A stretch of 64,000 nucleotides of DNA from Saprospiraceae bacterium (GTDB lineage Bacteria; Bacteroidota; Bacteroidia; Chitinophagales; Saprospiraceae). Under the pieces are notes generated by a model, which made no database searches, was not told the DNA's origin, and worked only from the letters and a program-made list of their open reading frames with translations. A program made the translations under genes and the position numbers. The stretch lies in contig JALHQW010000024.1 of the NCBI GenBank assembly GCA_022841745.1, positions 1 through 64,000 of the forward strand, given 5' to 3'. Each line of letters starts with the position of its first letter. Position 1 is the stretch's first letter. Of this stretch, positions 4,652 to 58,032 are shown piece by piece.

Positions 4652-6118
4652 ATGTCCAATTCAAATAAACTATACTGGAAAATCTCGGCCACTTTCCTCC
4701 TCGTGATGGTGGTGCTGGGGGTAGTCTATGTGCTGGTGAGCGCCTACACCTACCGCAACTATACCTTGGAGACGAGCCAAAGACTCCATGCCCACCTCGC
4801 CGACCACCTCGTGAAGGAAACCAAGCCGCTCGTGAATGGCAAGCCCGACACGACCGCCACGCACGACATCATGCATTCCATGATGGTCATCAACCCCAGT
4901 GTGGAGGTGTATCTACTCGACACGACTGGGCGCATCATTGACTACGTGGTGCCGTTCAGCACGGTGAAACGGGAGCGGGTTAGCCTCGAACCCGTGCACA
5001 AGTTCATTGAAGCCAAGGGCGAACTGCACATCCTCGGCGATTGTCCGAAGGCACCCGGCGCACAGAATATCTTCTCGGCTTCGCCAATTTTTGAGGGGGA
5101 AAAACTAACGGGCTACGCCTATATCATCCTCGCTGGCATGGCGCAGCAGGAGGTGGGTGCCACGCTGCTCGGCAGCTATTTTTTAAAAACAGGTTCGCTC
5201 ATTTTCCTCGCCACCCTGATTGCATCGCTGCTGGTCGGATTGTTCGCTATCTGGCTGATTACGAGGAACTTACAGAACATCATAGAAGTGGTGCGGCGCT
5301 TCAAGGAGGGCGATAACAAGGCTCGTGTGCCAAATGCGCAGGGCAACGACCTATCCCTGCTGGCCACCACTTTCAACGATATGGCGGACACCATCGGGGC
5401 CAATATCGAGGAACTGAAATCGGTCGAAAACCTGCGTCGGGAACTCATCGCCAACGTCTCTCACGACCTGCGCACCCCGCTGGCCATCATGCAGGGCTAC
5501 GTGGAGACGCTGCTCATCAAGAACGACACCCTCACGCCCGACGAGCGCAAGCAGTACCTCGAAACTACACTTGGCAGTTCGGAGAAATTGGCAAAGCTTA
5601 TTTCCCAACTCTTCGAGTACTCCAAGCTGGAGGCCAAGCAAATACAGCCCCGCAAGGAGCCGTTTTTCATCGCAGAACTGGCGCAGGACGTCCACCAGAA
5701 GTACCAAATCATTGCGAAGCGAAAAGGCATCACGCTCCAACTCGACCAACCGAAGGACCTGCCCATGGTCTTCGCCGACCTCGGCCTGGTGGAGCGGGTC
5801 ATCCAGAACCTGATGGACAATGCCCTAAAGTTCACCCCGTCTGGCGGCAAGGTGAGCATCGCCCTACGGGCAATGGACAGCAACGTGGAGGTGCGCATCG
5901 CCGACACGGGGCCGGGCATACCAGAAAGCGAGCAGTTGGCCATTTTCGAGCGTTACCGCAAGGCATCAACTGGCCATATGCAACAGTCGGCGGGGGCTGG
6001 GCTGGGTCTGGCCATTGCTAAGAAGATTCTAGAACTGCACGATGCCACGATTCGGGTGCAGAGCAAGCTGAACGAGGGGACGGCGTTCATGTTCCAGTTG
6101 CCGGTGGCGGTGGGATAG
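4652..6118 (+). CDS. Membrane sensor histidine kinase
   Basis: The 488-residue kinase has a transmembrane segment at about 10-32, a periplasmic sensor region, a second segment at about 181-204, a HAMP linker, a HisKA domain with phospho-acceptor His271 in NVSHDLRTPL, and an ATPase domain with NALKFTP (N box), DTGPGIPE (G1) and GAGLGLAI (G2). The start is set at 4652 (MSNSNKLYWK); the open frame extends to 4505 only because it reads through the heptamer repeat. It pairs with the upstream regulator. The sensed signal is unknown. Confidence 0.92.
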   Translation: MSNSNKLYWKISATFLLVMVVLGVVYVLVSAYTYRNYTLETSQRLHAHLADHLVKETKPLVNGKPDTTATHDIMHSMMVINPSVEVYLLDTTGRIIDYVVPFSTVKRERVSLEPVHKFIEAKGELHILGDCPKAPGAQNIFSASPIFEGEKLTGYAYIILAGMAQQEVGATLLGSYFLKTGSLIFLATLIASLLVGLFAIWLITRNLQNIIEVVRRFKEGDNKARVPNAQGNDLSLLATTFNDMADTIGANIEELKSVENLRRELIANVSHDLRTPLAIMQGYVETLLIKNDTLTPDERKQYLETTLGSSEKLAKLISQLFEYSKLEAKQIQPRKEPFFIAELAQDVHQKYQIIAKRKGITLQLDQPKDLPMVFADLGLVERVIQNLMDNALKFTPSGGKVSIALRAMDSNVEVRIADTGPGIPESEQLAIFERYRKASTGHMQQSAGAGLGLAIAKKILELHDATIRVQSKLNEGTAFMFQLPVAVG

Positions 6119-47700: not shown

Positions 47701-49450
47701 TCACGCAAGAAGAAAAGGCGATTTTCTTGTCTGCCATTTTCTTAGCCGTATCCCTGAATTCATCCACAAGAAAGCGTTCAGGAGATACGAAAGAAAATAG
47801 CACTCTTCCTTTTTCGAGGTCGTGCAGGGCAAGCGTTTTCTCATGCCGCTTGAGTGTTGAATTGATAAACTGGCAGGCATCAATACTATTGCGTATAAGC
47901 CCATCCACTTGGTCTTTCATCAAGGAACGGATAGGGTCAATGACCAAGGTCACGCCTGGTTGCAAGAGCGCTGCCAACTGGTAGGTTAATGATTTTCCAC
48001 CGCCCGTTGGCAACAACCCGATGACTGTTTTCCCCTGAAGTGCCCTTCGGAGGATGGGTAGTTGCCCAGGTCGGAAACCCGTCTTGCGAAAGAGGTTTTT
48101 AAGGAAAAAACCAATTTCAGGAGCCTGCATTTCCCCATTTTTAGTAGCAATTTCCTTGTAAGCCACAAGCGGTGCAAAAACGAGTCTTTGGTCGAATTCA
48201 AACCATCTGGCTGTTCGCAGGATGGCAAAATTGCCGGGATAGCCCGGGTGGGCCTCAAGACCTGTGCGGCGCAGCATTGACACATCAATCAGCAAATCGC
48301 ATGGGGTATTGTCATATTTTCCAACCGTGACATCTGCGCCAGCGTGTAACCCAGCATTTCGAAATTCGCTGGAAATAAACATCTTCTTTAATCGGATACG
48401 GGGTGGTCTGGGCTTGTCGGCTAATGCAAATATTGCATCGAAGTTCTCTTGAAGACTATTGACTGCAAGCCTTGCGCATGGCACATCTTGTTCAACCACT
48501 ACTATATTCCATTCTTCCGCATCCATTTTCAAATGTCCGCTCAGGACAGCCTCAATGATAGCTTTTTGAACCCTCGCTATAGCAAATGGGGTCAGGGCAA
48601 ACTGTAAGGTTTCCAACCATTCTGGGTCTTCAAATGACTGTTTACAATGTTCGCCGACTTCTTTAACGTAAGCATCTTCACTCACCCTTCTCAACACTGC
48701 CGCCGCTTGGGTTATATCATTGAACCGGTGGCATTTCCACGCACTTAATTCCGCAGCTTCATTCCTGCGTTCATCAAGCAGGATTTGGTCGAGGGCACAA
48801 TGGTAGTTTCGGCCATCCACTTCGACTACATAACTTTTATAGCCTGTTCTCTCCCTATCTCCTTGTACTTCTTTGTGGTGGTAAGGCACAGGAAAGGCAA
48901 AGTCAACTTTCTGTTCGTGAAAGCCGCCATTGCCGGGGGCAAGAAAGCCTTTTATTTTTTCAAACTTTACTTGCGGCTGAAACAATTGCTGGAGATAAGG
49001 GAAGCTGCCAGCATCATCGTAGTAAAATGCTCTTTCAAAATTGCTTCCGAAGTCCGCATTGAAAGGGAAACTTTCCCTTGTTATTTTTAACCGCTTATCG
49101 GCAACATGAAGTGCTGTGAAAAAGATAGGCAATTTACTTTTCCCTTTTTCAGTCAATTCGAATTTGATGCCGCCATTGTCTTCCTTCCTTTCTGTAAAGC
49201 CAAGTCGGGTCAGTGCTTCTTCGACAAGCAGTGGGCAGAGAGTGGGCAAGCCCCTAATGAGCAGATTGTGCAAAACAGCGATTTCGGAAGATATATTTTC
49301 TAACCTTTGCGGAAAGTTAGAGATGGCAGTAAATAGCGACAAGGAACGGAGCAATGGCTCCATTTTTTCAGCCCCGTAGCGTTCTATAAGTTCGTTTCGG
49401 AGTTCTTGATTGAAATATCCTGCTTGGTGATTAGGTAGCTCAACTGGCAT
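44738..49450 (-). CDS. Nuclease plus RecQ-like helicase, in-frame amber codon
   Basis: A continuous frame of 1,570 codons is interrupted only by TAG at 47672-47674. Part 1 (592 residues) has helical and winged-helix-like regions, a PD-(D/E)XK nuclease domain at about 178-243 (KVDFAF; EVDG at 210-213; LLDERRN, DUF559/Vsr-like), then a helicase start with Walker [11 protein letters not shown] (478-487) and DEAHC (585-589). The stop replaces the Trp expected in SEWGHDFR. Part 2 (usually started at 47641) holds [20 protein letters not shown] and [10 protein letters not shown] (motifs III, V, VI) and about 600 uncharacterised residues. Low GC marks it as acquired. Defence against phage or plasmids is a reasonable inference. 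Confidence 0.88.
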
Positions 49451-51099: not shown

Positions 51100-52362
51100 G
51101 TGACCAACTCGACAACAACACCCACCTTCTCCCCCTACCAAAAATTCGTCATCGCCATTCTGGCCATCACGCAGTTCACCATCGTGCTGGACTTCATGGT
51201 GCTGAACCCGCTGTTGCCGTTCATTTCCAAGGACATGTCCATCACACCCAAGCAATTCAGTTGGGTCGTGTCTGCTTATGCTTTCAGTGCGGGCGCTGCG
51301 GGATTACTGTCCTCGTTCATTGCCGACCGTTTCGACCGGAAGCGGCTTTTTGTGGTGTTCTATATTGGTTTTATTGTCGGGACGCTGTTTTGCGGCCTTG
51401 CCAGCACCTACCACCAACTCTTGGCTGCCCGCACTGTTGCGGGCATTTTCGGGGGCGTCATGGGGTCCACCGCCGCGGCCATCATCACCGACGTGTTTGC
51501 CTTCGAGCAGCGGGGCCGGGTCATGGGTTTTTTCCAGATGGCCTTTGCCTCCAGCCAGGTGCTGGGCCTGCCCATCGGCCTCGCCCTCGCCAACGAGTGG
51601 GGCTGGAACTCCACCTTCCTGGCCATCGTCGGCATTTGCATCCCGATTCTACTGGCCATCGTGTTCCTACTGCGGCCCATTGACAGCCATTTATCGCTAA
51701 AGCGCAGCAGCTCTGCGGGCGTTCACATGGCAAGGGTCGCCACCGACCGAAGGTACCTCCAGGTGTTCCTTGCCACTACCCTACTGGCCACGGGCGGCTT
51801 CATGCTCATGCCTTTCGGGGCGGCCTTTGCCGTGGGCAACCTTGGCCTTACGATGGAGCAATTGCCTTTCATTTACTTTGTGACCGGGCTTTGCTCCATG
51901 GCCGCCGGGCCGCTCGTCGGCAAGCTGGCCGACCGACTGGGAGCCTATAAGGTCTTTGTGGTGGGGTCTTTGACGACCATCATCAGTGTGCTGATTTACA
52001 CGAACCTCGGTATCACGCCCGTTTGGGCAGTCACCCTGCTCAGCGCCGTGATGATGTCGGCGGTGGGCAGCCGCATGATTACCGCCTCCGCCCTTACCTC
52101 CGCCGTGCCCGACCCCGCCGACCGGGGGGCCTTCATGGGCATCAACTCCAGCGTGGCGCAGGTATCCGGCGGCATCGCTGCGGCGGTTGCGGGCATGATT
52201 GTGGTGGAACGAGCGGACGGGTTCCTGGAAAACTACCCCCTGCTCGGCATCGTGGTGGCAGCGGCGATGTTCATCACGGGAGTGCAGCTTTACTTCGTGA
52301 ACAGGGCGGTTCGGGAGCGCAGGAAGAAAGTGGTAGAAGGCAATGTAGAAATAACGAAATAA
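51100..52362 (+). CDS. MFS transporter
   Basis: The 420-residue protein has twelve predicted helices and major-facilitator motifs (ADRFDRKRLFVVFYIGF after helix 2; GKLADRLGAYKVFVVGS in the second half), of the drug:H+ antiporter or sugar-efflux type. It begins with GTG at 51100; the preceding DNA is a word repeat without an ATG. Its last codons (EITK, TAA) are made by the octamer repeat that begins here. Confidence 0.9.
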   Translation: MTNSTTTPTFSPYQKFVIAILAITQFTIVLDFMVLNPLLPFISKDMSITPKQFSWVVSAYAFSAGAAGLLSSFIADRFDRKRLFVVFYIGFIVGTLFCGLASTYHQLLAARTVAGIFGGVMGSTAAAIITDVFAFEQRGRVMGFFQMAFASSQVLGLPIGLALANEWGWNSTFLAIVGICIPILLAIVFLLRPIDSHLSLKRSSSAGVHMARVATDRRYLQVFLATTLLATGGFMLMPFGAAFAVGNLGLTMEQLPFIYFVTGLCSMAAGPLVGKLADRLGAYKVFVVGSLTTIISVLIYTNLGITPVWAVTLLSAVMMSAVGSRMITASALTSAVPDPADRGAFMGINSSVAQVSGGIAAAVAGMIVVERADGFLENYPLLGIVVAAAMFITGVQLYFVNRAVRERRKKVVEGNVEITK

Positions 52363-52515
52363 AGATTTCATCATGGGCTTTTCGCTAAGCAATTTGGCGT
52401 TTTGCACAGCTATGCTAAATTTGCGTTCCGTTCAATTCATTCTTCCAGAGCAACATGGCCATTTATCACCACAGCTTGCAGCCGAGCTTGCGCAAGCTGC
52501 CAAATCTTTGCTCAA

Positions 52516-53349
52516 ATGAATCAACAACCAAACACCCTGCAAGTAGAAGGCACGGCCATCCGGCTGAACGAGAACTTTATTTCTTTGACGGATATGTGCA
52601 AGCATTTCCCAAGGGGAACAAATCTTTTAAGTGATTGGCTCCGCAATAGGAACACACTTGAGTACATTAAGACATGGGAGCAATTGAACAACCCCAATTT
52701 TAAAACCAGCAAATTCGCTGGTTTTGAGAATCAAGCAGGGTTGAACACTTTTCACGTATATGCGGGAGACCTTGTCGAGACCTGCGGTGTCCGCTGCTTG
52801 CAAGTTTCCAAAGGAAGGTATGGCGGAACGTATGGCGTGTTGGAAGTAGCCTTCCATTTTGACATGTGGCTGTCGCCAAAATTACACATGTTGGTAGTCG
52901 GGCAATACCTGCAACTATTAGAAGAGAAGTACGGCAATGAAGCCATCCAATGGAAGGTGCGCCGGGAATTGTCGAAGGTGAATTACCGCCTTCATACCGA
53001 GGCCATCAAGCAGGTGATGCCGCCCCGGTTGGGCAATATCGAGCAGGGCTTCCGCTATGCCAACGAAGCCGATCTGCTGAACCTCGCCCTTTTCGGCATT
53101 ACTGCTGCCCAATGGCGGCTCGAAAACGCTCACCTGCCCGGAAATATCCGGGACCATGCCTCCACCGAACAATTATTAGTGCTGGCCAACCTCGAAAACC
53201 TGAACGCCGAGTACCTCAAAAACGGACTTAACAGTACAGAGCGCCTTCGCCTGCTCAACGAAAGGGCCATCGAGCAAATGGACCTGCTGATGCGGTACGA
53301 CGCTGGGAAAAAGCTCCAGCAGATAGCAAATGACGATTTAAAGAAATAA
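52516..53349 (+). CDS. KilA-N domain protein
   Basis: The 277-residue protein (start MNQQPNTLQVEGTAIRLNEN) has a KilA-N domain (SLTDMCKHFPRGTNLLSDWL, then RYGGTYGVLEVAFHFDMWLSPKLHMLVVGQY) and a C-terminal helical region (NANLENLNAEYLKN-like). KilA-N proteins bind DNA and are typical of phages and mobile elements. The stop TAA lies inside an octamer repeat. Confidence 0.88.
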   Translation: MNQQPNTLQVEGTAIRLNENFISLTDMCKHFPRGTNLLSDWLRNRNTLEYIKTWEQLNNPNFKTSKFAGFENQAGLNTFHVYAGDLVETCGVRCLQVSKGRYGGTYGVLEVAFHFDMWLSPKLHMLVVGQYLQLLEEKYGNEAIQWKVRRELSKVNYRLHTEAIKQVMPPRLGNIEQGFRYANEADLLNLALFGITAAQWRLENAHLPGNIRDHASTEQLLVLANLENLNAEYLKNGLNSTERLRLLNERAIEQMDLLMRYDAGKKLQQIANDDLKK

Positions 53350-53362
53350 CGAAATATACAAC

Positions 53363-53818
53363 ATGATTTCCATCCTTCGCACCACTTCCGCCCACCCCGG
53401 CTTCGTTGCCCTTGTGCGGCACCTCGATGCTTACCTCGCCCATATTGACGGCGACGAGCACGCTTTTTACGCCCAATACAACAAGATTGCAGCCCTGCAA
53501 AATGTGGTGGTAGCCCTTGAAGGCGACACGCCCATTGGCTGCGGTGCCTTCAAGCCTTTCGATGAAAAATCGGTGGAAGTGAAACGGATGTACGTGCTGC
53601 CCGAATGGCGTGGCAAGGGTGTGGCAAACCAGGTGCTTTCAGAACTGGAACGCTGGGCGGCAGAACTCAGCTACAGTAGCTGCCTGTTGGAGACAGGGCT
53701 TCGGATGCCCGATGCGGTGGCGTTTTACACCAAGAACGGCTATTTAAGGACGGAGAATTTTGGGCAGTACGTGGGGGTGGAGAACAGTGTTTGTTTTGAG
53801 AAAGAATTACAGATTTAA
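53363..53818 (+). CDS. GNAT acetyltransferase
   Basis: The 151-residue protein has the GNAT fold with the acetyl-CoA signature VKRMYVLPEWRGKGVANQVLSELERWA and a late LETGLRMPDAVAFYTKNGY. Substrate unknown. It follows the KilA-N gene by 13 bases on the same strand, and its stop codon TAA starts an octamer array. Confidence 0.92.
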   Translation: MISILRTTSAHPGFVALVRHLDAYLAHIDGDEHAFYAQYNKIAALQNVVVALEGDTPIGCGAFKPFDEKSVEVKRMYVLPEWRGKGVANQVLSELERWAAELSYSSCLLETGLRMPDAVAFYTKNGYLRTENFGQYVGVENSVCFEKELQI

Positions 53819-53844
53819 CGAAATAACGAATTCTATAAATCTCT

Positions 53845-54273
53845 TCAAACAAAAAAAACCAGTAAAAGAGCCAAACATCCAATGGTAAGGCACAGTGGCG
53901 AAAAGCACTTCGTATCCATCCTCGCAAACAACGACTCCTTCTCCCTCTTAAAAAAACCCACATACCGGAAATCGCCAACCGCCCTGAAAAGGAAAACCGC
54001 TGCAATCGCCCAGACCGACCACTCCCCTACCCTATCGGGCAGCCAGTCAATTTGAACCAGTCCGCCCCTAATAAGAACGGCCAAGCCCATCAACAGCAGG
54101 CCGAAAGCCACAACGAGCGTGGCCACAGGGCCGGGCCTGAACAAGGGCTGCCCATCAGTGTTGGTCGGGACTGCCGTAGCCAAGCCCCATTTGCCGCCGA
54201 GCACCCAGTAAACGTGGATGAGGGAAAGCGCCATGAAAATGGCAACAAGCAATAGACTGATGAGGATAGCCAT
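53845..54273 (-). CDS. DUF3995 membrane protein
   Basis: The 142-residue protein (start MAILISLLLVAIFM at 54273) has four membrane helices and the DUF3995 pattern (SLIHVYWVLGGKWGLATAVP). Function unknown. Octamer arrays stand at both its ends (53814 and 54290). Confidence 0.8.
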   Translation of the reverse strand: MAILISLLLVAIFMALSLIHVYWVLGGKWGLATAVPTNTDGQPLFRPGPVATLVVAFGLLLMGLAVLIRGGLVQIDWLPDRVGEWSVWAIAAVFLFRAVGDFRYVGFFKREKESLFARMDTKCFSPLCLTIGCLALLLVFFV

Positions 54274-54312
54274 GACTTTTGAATAAAGATTTAACGAAAT
54301 AACGAATTCTTC

Positions 54313-54427
54313 GTAACACGGACTGCTAGTCCGTGCATTCGTGCTTCCCCTTTGCTGACGCTTTTTCAATTAAAGCGAACGGTCTGGCAGACCGCTTTAC
54401 TTTGGCACGGTCTGGCAGACCGTGTTA
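54313..54427. repeat. Palindrome cluster (CACGGACTG / ACGGTCTGGC)
   Basis: Three palindromes follow one another: TAACACGGACTGCTAGTCCG, AAGCGAACGGTCTGGCAGAC and GGCACGGTCTGGCAGACCGT. The last one ends in TTA, the complement of the VOC gene's stop codon at 54425-54427. The vocabulary is shared with 12876-12965 and 59714-59801. Confidence 0.85.
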
Positions 54428-54802
54428 TTTGAAATGCGGGTTCTCAATGACGCCCAATACATTCCCAAACGGGTCGAAGAACGTCGCCACCTTGATGCCG
54501 CCGCCCACTTCCGTGACTGGCTCTCGCTCCACAGCGCCAAGCGATAGCAACCTCGAAGCAGCAGCATCTGCATCCGTTACGCCCCAGTAGGCGAGCACCC
54601 CTCCCCCACCCGGCTGGTTCACTTCGTCGGCGGGCATAACGCCCAACTCGTAGCCGCCGACATTGAAGCCGACATAGAACGGCTCGTCGAAATAGGGCGG
54701 AAAGCCGAGCACTCGGGCGTACCAGTCCCTTGCCTTTTCAAGTTCGGTGTTCACATATATGACAGTGCGGAGGCCAAGGAAATGTTGATGGTTGTTTTCC
54801 AT
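54425..54802 (-). CDS. VOC family protein
   Basis: The 125-residue protein shows the glyoxalase fold (FLGLRTVIYVNTELEKARDW, GYELGVMPADE, GIKVATFFDPFGNVLGVIEN). Cytoplasmic, substrate unknown. Its stop codon is the first triplet of a palindromic repeat. Confidence 0.88.
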   Translation of the reverse strand: MENNHQHFLGLRTVIYVNTELEKARDWYARVLGFPPYFDEPFYVGFNVGGYELGVMPADEVNQPGGGGVLAYWGVTDADAAASRLLSLGAVEREPVTEVGGGIKVATFFDPFGNVLGVIENPHFK

Positions 54803-54877
54803 GATTGCTGAAGATTAACGAAATGACGAAATAAAGAAAAATGGGGTGGCGAAATATGGTTTCAAAGATATTTGGGT

Positions 54878-54915
54878 AACGAAAAAACGAAATGCAGATT
54901 TCGTTTTTTCGTTAT
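54878..54915. repeat. Perfect 17-bp inverted octamer repeat
   Basis: TAACGAAAAAACGAAAT, four bases, and its exact complement. It is one of the octamer sites, arranged as a palindrome instead of a tandem. Confidence 0.9.
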
Positions 54916-54942
54916 TTCTGCATTTCTCCACATCCATCCAAA

Positions 54943-55155
54943 ATGGCTTACTGCTCTCCACCCGATTTTAAGCGGATATGGGCGCAGATTTCCATGCATT
55001 ACCACCCGATGCCGGAGTTGAATGGGCAAAATCCGGCAGAGCGGCGGAAAATGGCCAAAATCGGAAAGCGCCGCTCCCCTACCCTGCTACCAGAAACAGA
55101 ATTTGGCAGAGCAAAGATGATAGGAAGTCATTTCAGTAACGATAAGACGAAATAA
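54943..55155 (+). CDS. Small reading frame, doubtful
   Basis: A 70-residue frame (MAYCSPPDFKRIWAQISMHY, then KIGKRRSPTLLPETEFGRA) lies in the gap between the VOC and RHH genes. It contains no recognised motif, and its tail is encoded by an octamer repeat. It may be a small basic protein or chance. Confidence 0.25.
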   Translation: MAYCSPPDFKRIWAQISMHYHPMPELNGQNPAERRKMAKIGKRRSPTLLPETEFGRAKMIGSHFSNDKTK

Positions 55156-55187
55156 CGAAAACGTTATTTAACGATAAAACGAAAGCG

Positions 55188-55412
55188 TTACCGTGTGCTC
55201 TTGAAATGTTCGAAGCAGGTGGACAGCAGGGTGACCATGCTCATGTCCATTTCGTTGGCATACGCCTTGAACTCCCGCTTGAAGGCGGCTGGCACCTTGA
55301 AGTTGAGGGGGCGCAGGTCTTGGTCGGAGCTGCGGCTGAGGTTGGCGGGCGCCTCGAACTCTGGCGGCGGCGCTCCCTTGCGGTTGGTGGCTGGTTTGCT
55401 GATTTTTGCCAT
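55188..55412 (-). CDS. Ribbon-helix-helix protein, probable partition (centromere-binding) protein
   Basis: The 74-residue protein has a basic, disordered N-terminus (about 1-33) and a ribbon-helix-helix domain (RPLNFKVPAAFKREFKAYAN, then EMDMSMVTLLSTCFEHFKST). Size and layout match ParG/omega-type centromere-binding partners of small ParA proteins, with the N-terminal tail able to stimulate the ATPase. parA lies 540 bases upstream on the same strand. Its stop TAA is part of an octamer array, the likely DNA target. Confidence 0.8.
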   Translation of the reverse strand: MAKISKPATNRKGAPPPEFEAPANLSRSSDQDLRPLNFKVPAAFKREFKAYANEMDMSMVTLLSTCFEHFKSTR

Positions 55413-55954
55413 AATGGTTGATGTTGGATGCTTTTGTTACTGGATACTAGATGCTGGATGCTGGATGCTTTGGAGCAGCTGCAAAGATATAGAAATAACG
55501 ATTTAACGATTTCGTTTTTTTTTGCCCTTGTTCAGGATGGTCACACGGATTGGACGGATTTGGCGGGTTTGCACGGATTTTTCCCAGATTTCAATTTGGG
55601 TCATTTTTCCAGTCTGTTCCATTGCTGCGTTCAATTTGCTTAGAAGGTATAAATAACGAATTAACGATTTCGTTTTTTCTCATTCTGCAGGATGGTCACA
55701 CGGATTGACGGATTTGGCGGGTAAGCACGGATTTATCTTGGATTTCATTTCATGCCTTCAGTGCATTCCATTTTACAAATACGCTCAACCTGCGTAACAA
55801 GTACAATAACGAAATAACGCTTTAACGAATTCTACTCTTCCAGATTCACCTGTTGTCAAAATAATTTATAACGAAATAACGCTTTAACGAATTATACAAC
55901 AGCAGAATATTAGAGCAGTGCCCCAATCCGAAATCCGCAATCTCCAATCCGAAA
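55413..55954. other. Repeat-filled gap between parA and the RHH gene
   Basis: No gene is visible in these 540 bases. They contain GATGCTGGAT heptamers (about 55,450-55,470), four octamer arrays (55492, 55650, 55806, 55868), two copies of a GGTCACACGGATTG word (55,540 and 55,692) followed by GGCGGG words, and CCAATCCGAAATCC words (55,921-55,955). A gap of this length inside a parAB-type operon is unusual. Confidence 0.7.
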
Positions 55955-56593
55955 TCATTTGACTTCCTCCACCCGGTTCACGATGGCCTGCACGAGCACG
56001 TCGGCCTTCTCGTTGATGGTCTTGAAGCCAGTCTCTGTAGCGCACTTGCCTTCGTCGGAGGCACGGCGCACGGCGGTCTTCTCGAAGAGTACGCCGTCGA
56101 GGAGGTGGTAGCCGCTGGATCGGACGTATTCCATGCCCTCGGCCAGTTCGGCGTCGCTGTTGCCGATGCGGGAGAGGGCGATGGCTATTTTCTGGGCTTG
56201 GATGCCATTTTTCTTGAGTTCGTGCGCGAGTTTGATGGTCGGCTCCAGGTCGTCGAGGGAGACGCCTGTTGGCAGCACCACGAGGTCGCTGACCTTGGCG
56301 ATGTCGAGGGTCTTGGAAGTGGAGTGGGGGGCACCATCGAAAACGATGAGGTCGTAGCGGTCGCCGTGCTTGAGGGCATCGGATACGTTGACGAACTGCT
56401 CCACGGCCACCGTCGGGCCGATTTCGTTCTGCATCCGACGGCGGTTCCAGTTGGTACAGGTGCCCTGTGAGAGGTCCATGTCGGCTATCTTCACTGCCCA
56501 TTCGCTGGCGGCATAATTGCAGGCGGTAAGCCGTGCGATGGTGCTCTTGCCCACGCCGCCCTTTTGTGATACTACTCCGATTACGAGTGCCAT
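55955..56593 (-). CDS. parA: ParA-family partition ATPase
   Basis: The 212-residue protein (start MALVIGVVSQKGGVGKSTIA at 56593) has the deviant Walker A motif KGGVGKS at 11-17, Walker A' IADMDLSQG and Walker B-like LIVFDGAP. It lacks the N-terminal DNA-binding domain of large ParAs, so it is the short, type Ib class. It should form gradients on the nucleoid that move the replicon bound by its partner. The RHH protein downstream is the expected partner. The upstream frame to 56680 is not used. Confidence 0.92.
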   Translation of the reverse strand: MALVIGVVSQKGGVGKSTIARLTACNYAASEWAVKIADMDLSQGTCTNWNRRRMQNEIGPTVAVEQFVNVSDALKHGDRYDLIVFDGAPHSTSKTLDIAKVSDLVVLPTGVSLDDLEPTIKLAHELKKNGIQAQKIAIALSRIGNSDAELAEGMEYVRSSGYHLLDGVLFEKTAVRRASDEGKCATETGFKTINEKADVLVQAIVNRVEEVK

Positions 56594-57017
56594 TCTGTTT
56601 GTTTTTGATGTAGAAATAACGAAATAAAGAATTAACGCCCCTGGGCATTTCCGCCGCAAAACTATAAACAGGAATGACAAGTAGGGTAGGGTAGGGGTGA
56701 ATTTTATATAAAAAAGTAAATGACGATTTCGTTATTTAACGAAATATAAAGCGCGAAGACAAAGGAATCATTTGACTTCAAAGCATTTTCAACCCTTTAC
56801 ATTAATATTTGCTGGGCAAAGGATCACAAGGCTTTATTCTATCTGTTTGGCAGCCGCCGTCGAGAGGAGGGGTTCGCAATTTTAAATACATTCATCAATA
56901 AAACCTCCCAAGCCTATCACACAACAGGTACACATCAGCCGGATAAAGGGTTTTCGCGTATAGTTTTACTACTACTTCATTCCTCTATGTCCCAGAAAGC
57001 CGCTTGCAGCGGCTTTC

Positions 57018-57150: not shown

Positions 57151-57152
57151 GT

Positions 57153-58032
57153 GTGTACCTGCTGTGGGTAAAATGTGTGCTTTGAAGGGGTGCCAACTGT
57201 ACCTGCTGTGGGTGAGGTGTGTCGTTATTGTGGGTCTCCCGCGTCCGCAGGGTGGGGTAGGGGTGTACGTGCTTGGGGATACCCGCGTTGCCAATGTGGG
57301 CTGGATGTGCTCCCGTTGTGGGTTGTGTACCTTATGTGGGATAATTGGTCGTTAAATCAGGCGATCCTCATTTTTTGTCTGCGCTTCAGCTCCATTTTGC
57401 CTGCCCTGAAATACAACTAATCATATCCAAATCAAAGAGAATAGACCATAATCTACTCATTATGAGGTAGTTAGCTAATTTTGATTCAAACGCTTCGTGA
57501 GATTGGATGGGAGCTGACCTTCCGAATTTGGCTGCAACCAAGAATATTTTTGGTCGCCCAAGCCCGAAAATTACACATCATGGACACACATAGACAGGTT
57601 AATTGTGTACCCGTTGTGGGCATTTTGGCGAATCATATTCTGCACTAAATCTATAGCTTGATTTTGTAAATTGCTGATAACCAGTATTTTAGGCTATCAG
57701 CATAGGTAAGTGTGTACGTAAAGTGGGTAATCGTGTCCATAAAGTGGGGGCTTTTTACGCAATGACAACAGTTTTGTTTCACTGATGTGTACCCGATTTG
57801 TAAACAGGCGTGGTTGTTAAGGCTTGGTGTGTTCCTGATGTGTTACCGGGATTAAGGCTCGTTTCGGCGCTTGTATTTCAAGTAAAAAATAAGAGCGTCT
57901 CAATTTTTTCAACCTCATGTGTACCTATCGTGGGGTTGTTTTCTGGCAAAAGGACACTTTTCTTTCATTGGCGTGTCCCCACTGTGGGAGATGTTGAAAA
58001 AAAGTGTACCTCTCTGTTTGCACACGTACACG
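57153..58032. other. Iteron-type replication origin
   Basis: About fourteen 16-18-base repeats fit GTGTACC-NNN-TGTGGG: 57153, 57197, 57217, 57263, 57306, 57325, 57605, 57712, 57733, 57787 (degenerate), 57829 (degenerate), 57919, 57973 and 58004. Nearly all point the same way, and they cluster in two groups (57153-57342 and 57605-58021). The initiator gene starts 160 bases after the last one. A partial inverted copy stands at 58021-58032. The iterons should be bound by the initiator and also set copy number. No clear DnaA box was found by eye. Confidence 0.88.

Follow-up and report, generated by a model that had tools for sequence, protein, structure and literature searches.

A 64-kb window, which is the whole stretch of DNA analyzed here (positions 1 to 64,000 of contig JALHQW010000024.1 from a Saprospiraceae bacterium), carries thirteen arrays of the 8-bp unit WTAACGAW at 52343-56743, around the genes for a short ParA protein and for a 74-residue protein of predicted ribbon-helix-helix (RHH) fold. 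The unit occurs on either strand, and the cores are exactly 8 bp apart. The locus is probably the type Ib partition module of an iteron/Rep3 replicon, consisting of the short ParA, the RHH protein as its centromere-binding partner, and a centromere dispersed over the octamer arrays.

Octamer Arrays in the par Region

Arrays were located by a loose scan of the window for at least three contiguous, in-phase WTRAMGAW units, a pattern that admits AAAG cores. The scan gave 16 matches, compared with 0.8 expected from a Markov model. Thirteen of these are the arrays listed in Table 1, and every direct or inverted array described around parA and the RHH gene in the initial annotation was recovered. 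The remaining matches comprise two simple repeats of TTGAAGG (22385 and 23789) and one match within the KilA-N coding sequence (52565) that is probably due to chance. A matrix derived from 268 units of 12 genomes of the genus yielded 12 arrays in the window, all at 53815-56743 (Markov mean of 0.0), and none in the rest of the 64 kb, consistent with the earlier statement that arrays are absent from other parts of the window. Arrays at 52343 and 53330 escape the matrix, and that at 54876 is split. The pattern AACGnnnnAACG has 14 matches in the window, 11 of them inside the array region, compared with 2.2 expected for the whole window.

When degenerate units are counted, seven of the thirteen arrays contain 4-7 units and six contain three. 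The stop codon of the MFS, KilA-N, GNAT, or RHH gene falls inside an array in four cases. Because the octamer contains TAA and the 8-bp period passes through all three reading frames, the octamer is able to terminate any gene that it abuts. Inspection of arrays 1, 2, 3, and 7 showed that they also hold the final codons of the adjoining gene. Likeness between arrays extends to 97% identity over 30 bp (arrays 10 and 11), 96% over 26 bp (arrays 1 and 12), and 84% over a 107-bp stretch (arrays 8 and 9).

The draft genome comprises 8,428,107 bases in 178 contigs. All six of its exact double octamers (WTAACGAWWTAACGMW) are at the locus; the backwards control pattern has one match. Allowing one mismatch (WWAACGAWWWAACGAW) gave 33 matches, 17 in the 4.3 kb of the locus, 1 elsewhere on the contig, and 15 on other contigs. 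Given that the backwards control of this pattern gave 42, the 16 matches away from the locus are background. Stretches of 11-14 kb around the ParA loci on contigs C31, C35, and C20 contain no WTRAMGAW array of three units, and the possibility that the octamer is common to every ParA module of the genome was rejected on this basis. The module on C35 has a different RHH-like partner, and ACTTA repeats, partly in 8-bp phase, form a compact block upstream of its parA at 4890-5260 of locus L061 on that contig.

Distribution of the Arrays on the Saprospira Plasmid

Four Saprospira genomes (two contigs in three of them, five in the fourth) each contain a contig of 53-57 kb and one of 4.19-4.42 Mb. 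The small contig is a known circular plasmid in three of the four; the plasmid records NC_016936.1 and NZ_CP116809.1 are circular, and the available text on S. grandis WHT gives its plasmid as 53,161 bp. The double AAAG octamer (WTAAAGAWWTAAAGAW) has 20, 18, 15, and 20 matches in these genomes (controls, 2). All 73 are on the small contig, with none on the 17.2 Mb of chromosome from the four genomes.

On NC_016936.1, 11 arrays of 7-11 contiguous octamers each, with AAAG cores mixed with AACG, are distributed from 236 to 50529 of 54,948 bp, where 2.2 arrays of at least three units are expected. Nine are entirely intergenic, and two run into the end of a gene, covering the final 12 bp of purF and the final 4 bp of a recombinase gene. 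Arrays occupy three of six convergent, three of seven divergent, and 5 of 19 tandem gaps; their presence in half of the convergent gaps indicates that they are not promoter-bound. Over 83 bp, the array copy at 49344 shares 97.6-98.8% identity with three others and has unmatched flanks; those three also share flanks with each other. Among the matches listed, another pair of arrays is 96.9% identical over 64 bp. Many other intergenic repeats are present, so repeat traffic is common on this plasmid; gaps filled with such repeats, of ∼130 bp, were noted in loci L119 and L120. The plasmid carries guaA, guaB, purB, purD, purF, purH, purN, and pyrF and for this reason may be chromid-like.

Co-occurrence of Arrays, RHH Protein, and ParA in the Genus

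A search of 100 relatives found the RHH protein in 12, all of them members of the genus, where it is present in 12 of 14 genomes. ParA relatives of at least 75% identity are present in 11 of these 14; the contig of G012 stops at the RHH gene. The genomes with an exact double octamer are the same 12 that have the RHH protein, and 35 of the 38 double octamers in the genus are on the RHH-bearing contig (backwards control, 6). The other three are all in G009, two on C102 and one on C48; gene order suggests that C102 is the missing neighbor of the par contig. Arrays 12 and 13, upstream of parA, are kept in six genomes, whereas the DNA further upstream is poorly conserved.

Neither the RHH protein, a close ParA, nor an exact double octamer was found in G002 and G008. 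Rep3 is present in 12 of the 14 congeners, and G002 retains a 72%-identical Rep3 (locus L152, C233, 3416-4912) on a contig without octamer arrays. That Rep3 occurs there without arrays implies that the arrays track the RHH protein and ParA rather than Rep3, with the caution that the contig is 7.9 kb in a genome that is 89% complete and in 780 contigs. By eye, the neighbors of this Rep3 resemble ordinary metabolic or chromosomal genes, and the locus is perhaps an integrated or domesticated replicon.

The distribution in its own genome, in the congeners, and in Saprospira is thus not that of a repeat equally dense on the chromosome, the result that the initial annotation had named as contrary to its proposal. 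Together, the replicon restriction and the co-occurrence with the RHH protein support its suggestion of a centromere spread among ordinary genes around parA and the RHH gene.

ParA and the RHH Protein

ParA is of the short type, with 212 residues, KGGVGKST, and no N-terminal helix-turn-helix. Its matches to CbiA and AAA_31 exceed the family cut-offs, and it scores 87 bits against NCBIfam ParA_partition, under the cut-off of 180. The RHH gene lies 542 bp downstream of parA on the same strand. Short tandem repeats at a fixed phase adjoin both genes, as in type Ib centromeres.

The 74-residue protein matches no Pfam or NCBIfam family at E ≤ 1, and a profile search of Protein Data Bank sequences returned only a sorting nexin at E 0.86. 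Its monomer model has a low-confidence tail followed by helices at 42-54 and 59-73 (predicted local distance difference test score of ∼95), an arrangement that an RHH monomer would be expected to show. Foldseek gave 62 matches to the model at E ≤ 10, of which none reached E ≤ 0.001; the top matches are CopG, followed by the RHH proteins PutA, Arc, AmrZ, and ParG (1p94; rank 22, probability 0.57). The monomer model and these weak but consistent structural matches support the RHH fold that had been predicted for the protein. The model shows two helices and Pfam gives no match, so the protein lacks the combination of helix-turn-helix and CTPase domains expected of a KorB/ParB protein.

Across 18 chosen relatives, tail residues Lys-12, Gly-13, Pro-15, and Pro-16 (KGxPP) are invariant, and this conservation is independent of how the loci were found. 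That of NFKV in the same alignment is partly built in because the loci were found with an NFKV-containing peptide.

An 8-bp Spacing in Related Modules

ParA relatives (E ≤ 1e-40) are present in 16 of 298 genomes of the family, from 10 of 112 genera. Arrays in 8-bp phase have AACG cores in G173, AAAG cores in Saprospira and G197, and AGCG cores in G179 and G159; those of G311, G267, G110, and G247 are mixed, minimal, or ambiguous. Cores across the related ParA/RHH modules comprise AACG, AAAG, AGCG, and ACGC. In G173, G159, G179, and G311, 22 of 25 double octamers are on the par contig (backwards controls, 13 over five genomes). Beyond these genomes, five ATTTCGTT units follow the RHH gene of the cyanobacterium Symploca, and compact array blocks adjoin parA and the RHH gene on Pseudomonas and Halomonas plasmids.

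The spacing was assessed by a test in which any tetramer containing G or C, at any spacing from 5 to 15, could win. A spacing of 8 bp ranked top in 31 of 45 modules, compared with 14 of 124 control segments from the same loci; the Fisher P of 8e-13 overstates independence because the modules are related. A separate ranking of cores by their 8-bp score is biased, and the free-tetramer, free-spacing test is the fair one. The examination of relatives' parA loci proposed in the initial annotation has disclosed joint conservation in the genus and a frequently shared period outside it.

In the putative RHH strand, Lys in LNFKV seems to accompany CG-containing cores, and Ser or Asn to accompany AAAG (Saprospira and G197). 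A code of strand-core covariation is not claimed; there are few independent changes, and G247 and G311 show no clear fit.

Features of the Locus

The genes interspersed with the arrays encode MFS, KilA-N, GNAT, DUF3995, and glyoxalase proteins (Table 1). A tRNA search of the window found none. KilA-N genes were also noted near other modules of the same genome (G000; C20:97662, C31:25137, and C35:33735), some of them adjoining other Rep3-ParA pairs, as well as at 51842 and 53000 of NC_016936.1 and at 7305-8141 of L117 (the last recognized by eye only).

Table 1. Positions in the window of the octamer arrays and associated features
Feature	Position	Strand	Remarks
Array 1, 4 in-phase units, one strong AACG core	52343..52374	+	MFS stop codon 52360-52362 inside
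KilA-N gene	52516-53349		
Array 2, 3 units	53330..53353	+	KilA-N stop codon 53347-53349 inside
Array 3, 5 units	53799..53838	+	Convergent genes either side; GNAT stop codon 53816-53818 inside
Array 4, 4 units	54283..54314	+	
Array 5, 3 units	54815..54838	+	Immediately upstream of glyoxalase gene
Array 6, 6 units, inverted order (>>><<<)	54876..54923	.	TAnnTTTG adjoining
Array 7, 7 units (>>><>><), longest	55136..55191	.	RHH stop codon 55188-55190 inside
74-residue RHH protein, presumed centromere-binding protein	55188..55412	-	Model and fold matches; in 12/14 congeners
Array 8, 4 units	55487..55518	.	Adjoins TAnnTTTG promoter-like element upstream of RHH gene
Array 9, 3 units	55653..55676	.	
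Array 10, 3 units	55806..55829	+	
Array 11, 3 units	55868..55891	+	
parA, 212 residues, deviant Walker A KGGVGKST	55955..56593	-	Nearest solved chain ParF, E 2e-4
Array 12, 4 units	56608..56639	+	14 bp upstream of parA; kept in six genomes
Array 13, 3 units	56720..56743	.	Upstream of parA; kept in six genomes
17-bp repeat TGTGTACCTGCTGTGGG, 10 degenerate copies, outside octamer set	57152..57988	+	Presumed Rep iterons
Rep3 family replication initiator, 511 residues	58181..59716	+	In 12/14 congeners

Discussion

The mechanism by which such a module would act can be outlined by analogy with known partition systems. RHH dimers would bind 8-bp units whatever their orientation and stack side by side on adjacent ones, and the coated arrays would be tethered to ParA on the nucleoid and would activate its ATPase, possibly via the conserved KGxPP tail at the N terminus of the RHH protein. 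As a 74-residue protein has no room for a CTPase clamp, several fixed arrays could build a large partition complex; distributed over kilobases, or over the whole plasmid in Saprospira, they may stand in for the complex that ParB makes by spreading. The arrays that flank the parA and RHH promoters would probably autoregulate both genes, as omega and ParG do, and array multiplication probably takes place by copying into intergenic gaps.

Plasmid centromeres are usually pictured as a single locus from which ParB spreads. There is an even chance that the arrays instead constitute a polycentric centromere, in which a copyable octamer array seeds intergenic gaps until the par region (in the window's genus) or the whole circle (in Saprospira, 11 arrays in 55 kb) bears force-bearing sites. 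Many fixed sites would then replace the CTP-dependent sliding and spreading of ParB, and related modules would each keep their own core matched to the RHH strand.

It is unlikely that the arrays are chiefly operators, with the RHH protein a regional or plasmid-wide repressor and partition a side role or absent. TAnnTTTG, a promoter element of Bacteroidota, is found no more than 12 bp from 8 of 116 arrays and 11 of 532 AT-rich controls (loci L055 and L060 left out), an excess too weak for promoter association to be the main explanation, and the other 108 arrays do not adjoin the element. The parA and RHH promoters are flanked by arrays, and omega of pSM19035 does both jobs at parS sites overlapping promoters, according to the available text (PMC4498918). 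However, the array-bearing gaps of the Saprospira plasmid show no preference for promoters, and array 3 of the window sits between convergent genes. The alternative offered in the initial annotation was a short tandem repeat family spreading at gene ends; taken as a mobile or slipping element that plays no part in segregation, such a repeat is improbable as a rival, although spreading is probably how the arrays multiply. Near-identical Saprospira arrays, including the 83-bp copy without matching flanks, the many other intergenic repeats of that plasmid, and the overlap with gene ends both there and in the window are all in its favor. A free repeat should nevertheless reach the chromosome, where none of the 73 Saprospira matches is found, and such a repeat would not be predicted to track the RHH protein across congeners, to keep an exact 8-bp phase through inverted units, or to have different cores in related par modules.

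Binding of the arrays by another replicon protein, either the Rep3 initiator (with the octamers as extra iterons) or the KilA-N protein, is the least probable of the explanations considered, even though both genes adjoin arrays. Rep3 has 17-bp repeats of its own and is retained in G002 without arrays, which argues against it within the limits of that 7.9-kb contig and 89% complete genome. KilA-N relatives are present in 13 of 14 congeners (the match in G002 being partial only), lie within ∼7 kb of the RHH gene in 5 of 12 (G000, G003, G007, G010, and G011), and are annotated on the Saprospira plasmid. Against this, KilA-N is a many-copy family, with 14 matches in the window's own genome, and none is annotated on plasmids of Nostoc, Pseudomonas KBS0707, and Halomonas or in 50 kb of HR96, all of which have arrays adjoining parA and the RHH gene but incomplete gene tables.

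Several observations weigh against a dispersed centromere bound by the RHH protein. The co-occurrence of KilA-N genes is one, and another is that the window's contig, a putative plasmid, is linear, at 98.8 kb. The RHH monomer model is without a strand, and its Foldseek matches all have E > 0.1 (probability up to 0.98). Some double octamers lie away from the par contig, namely on C48 of G009 and at G173 C30, G159 C177, and G179 C551. A spacing of 8 bp is not the top one in 14 of the 45 modules, among them G009 of the genus, Nostoc UHCC 0870, Azotobacter, and 7 of 19 other cyanobacterial loci. Six of the thirteen window arrays have only three units, fewer than the four contiguous repeats required in pSM19035. 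Finally, a single parS may suffice in that plasmid, as stated in the available text (PMC4498918), so many arrays need not be needed.

To the picture drawn from the window, the present analysis adds the replicon-only distribution in Saprospira, the joint absence of arrays and par genes in two congeners, an 8-bp rule that reaches beyond the phylum and accommodates different cores, and the plasmid-wide spread. At stake is how a complex strong enough for pulling arises with RHH partners that have no CTPase clamp. Scattered arrays and core differences make site number, spacing, and specificity variable, in cultured Saprospira and in the compact modules elsewhere, and an exact 8-bp phase adjoining parA and the RHH gene provides a simple rule for finding the centromeres of a large, mostly unannotated family. 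Judged from titles, the papers found on Saprospiraceae partition, cyanobacterial RHH/ParA systems, the Saprospira plasmid, and multiple parS sites include no description of the arrays, and those found with the octamer strings are unrelated at the same level.

The layout, called novel in the initial annotation, is so only with qualification. Several parS sites per plasmid are known for pSM19035 and scattered KorB operators for RK2. The TP228 system ParF/ParG/parH has a different core, and its parH is one site, whereas thirteen arrays extend over 4.4 kb here. It is similar in that ParF is the nearest solved ParA and the fold matches of the RHH model include ParG, the partner of ParF; in the available text, ParG belongs to the RHH proteins and coats tetramer boxes separated by AT-rich spacers. 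In RK2, the OB operators are scattered around the plasmid. KorB is both a partition protein and a repressor at several operators on one plasmid, and it works as a ParB-type sliding clamp that depends on CTP, according to the accessible part of the source (PMC11790492). A partition protein with several sites on one plasmid is the shared feature, presumed in the present case, but a 74-residue RHH protein and tandem octamers would be used here.

A close likeness in design is to delta/omega of pSM19035, which also combines a short ParA, a small RHH partner (predicted here), and short units that are arranged in tandem, either direct or inverted. In that plasmid, one RHH dimer sits on every 7-bp repeat, direct or inverted, and at least four contiguous repeats are needed for ParA activation, as given in the available text (PMC9499535). 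With degenerate units counted, this number is reached by 7 of 13 arrays in the window and by all 11 on NC_016936.1. The pSM19035 plasmid has six parS sites of 7-10 units each in the portions of the reports available (PMC9499535, PMC4498918), close to the 7-11 units of the Saprospira arrays. Its units are 7-bp WATCACW repeats, unlike the 8-bp WTAACGAW-type units described here, and the RHH tail is different. Whereas its parS sites overlap three promoter regions in the same texts, the octamer arrays also occupy convergent gaps and, in Saprospira, the whole plasmid circle.

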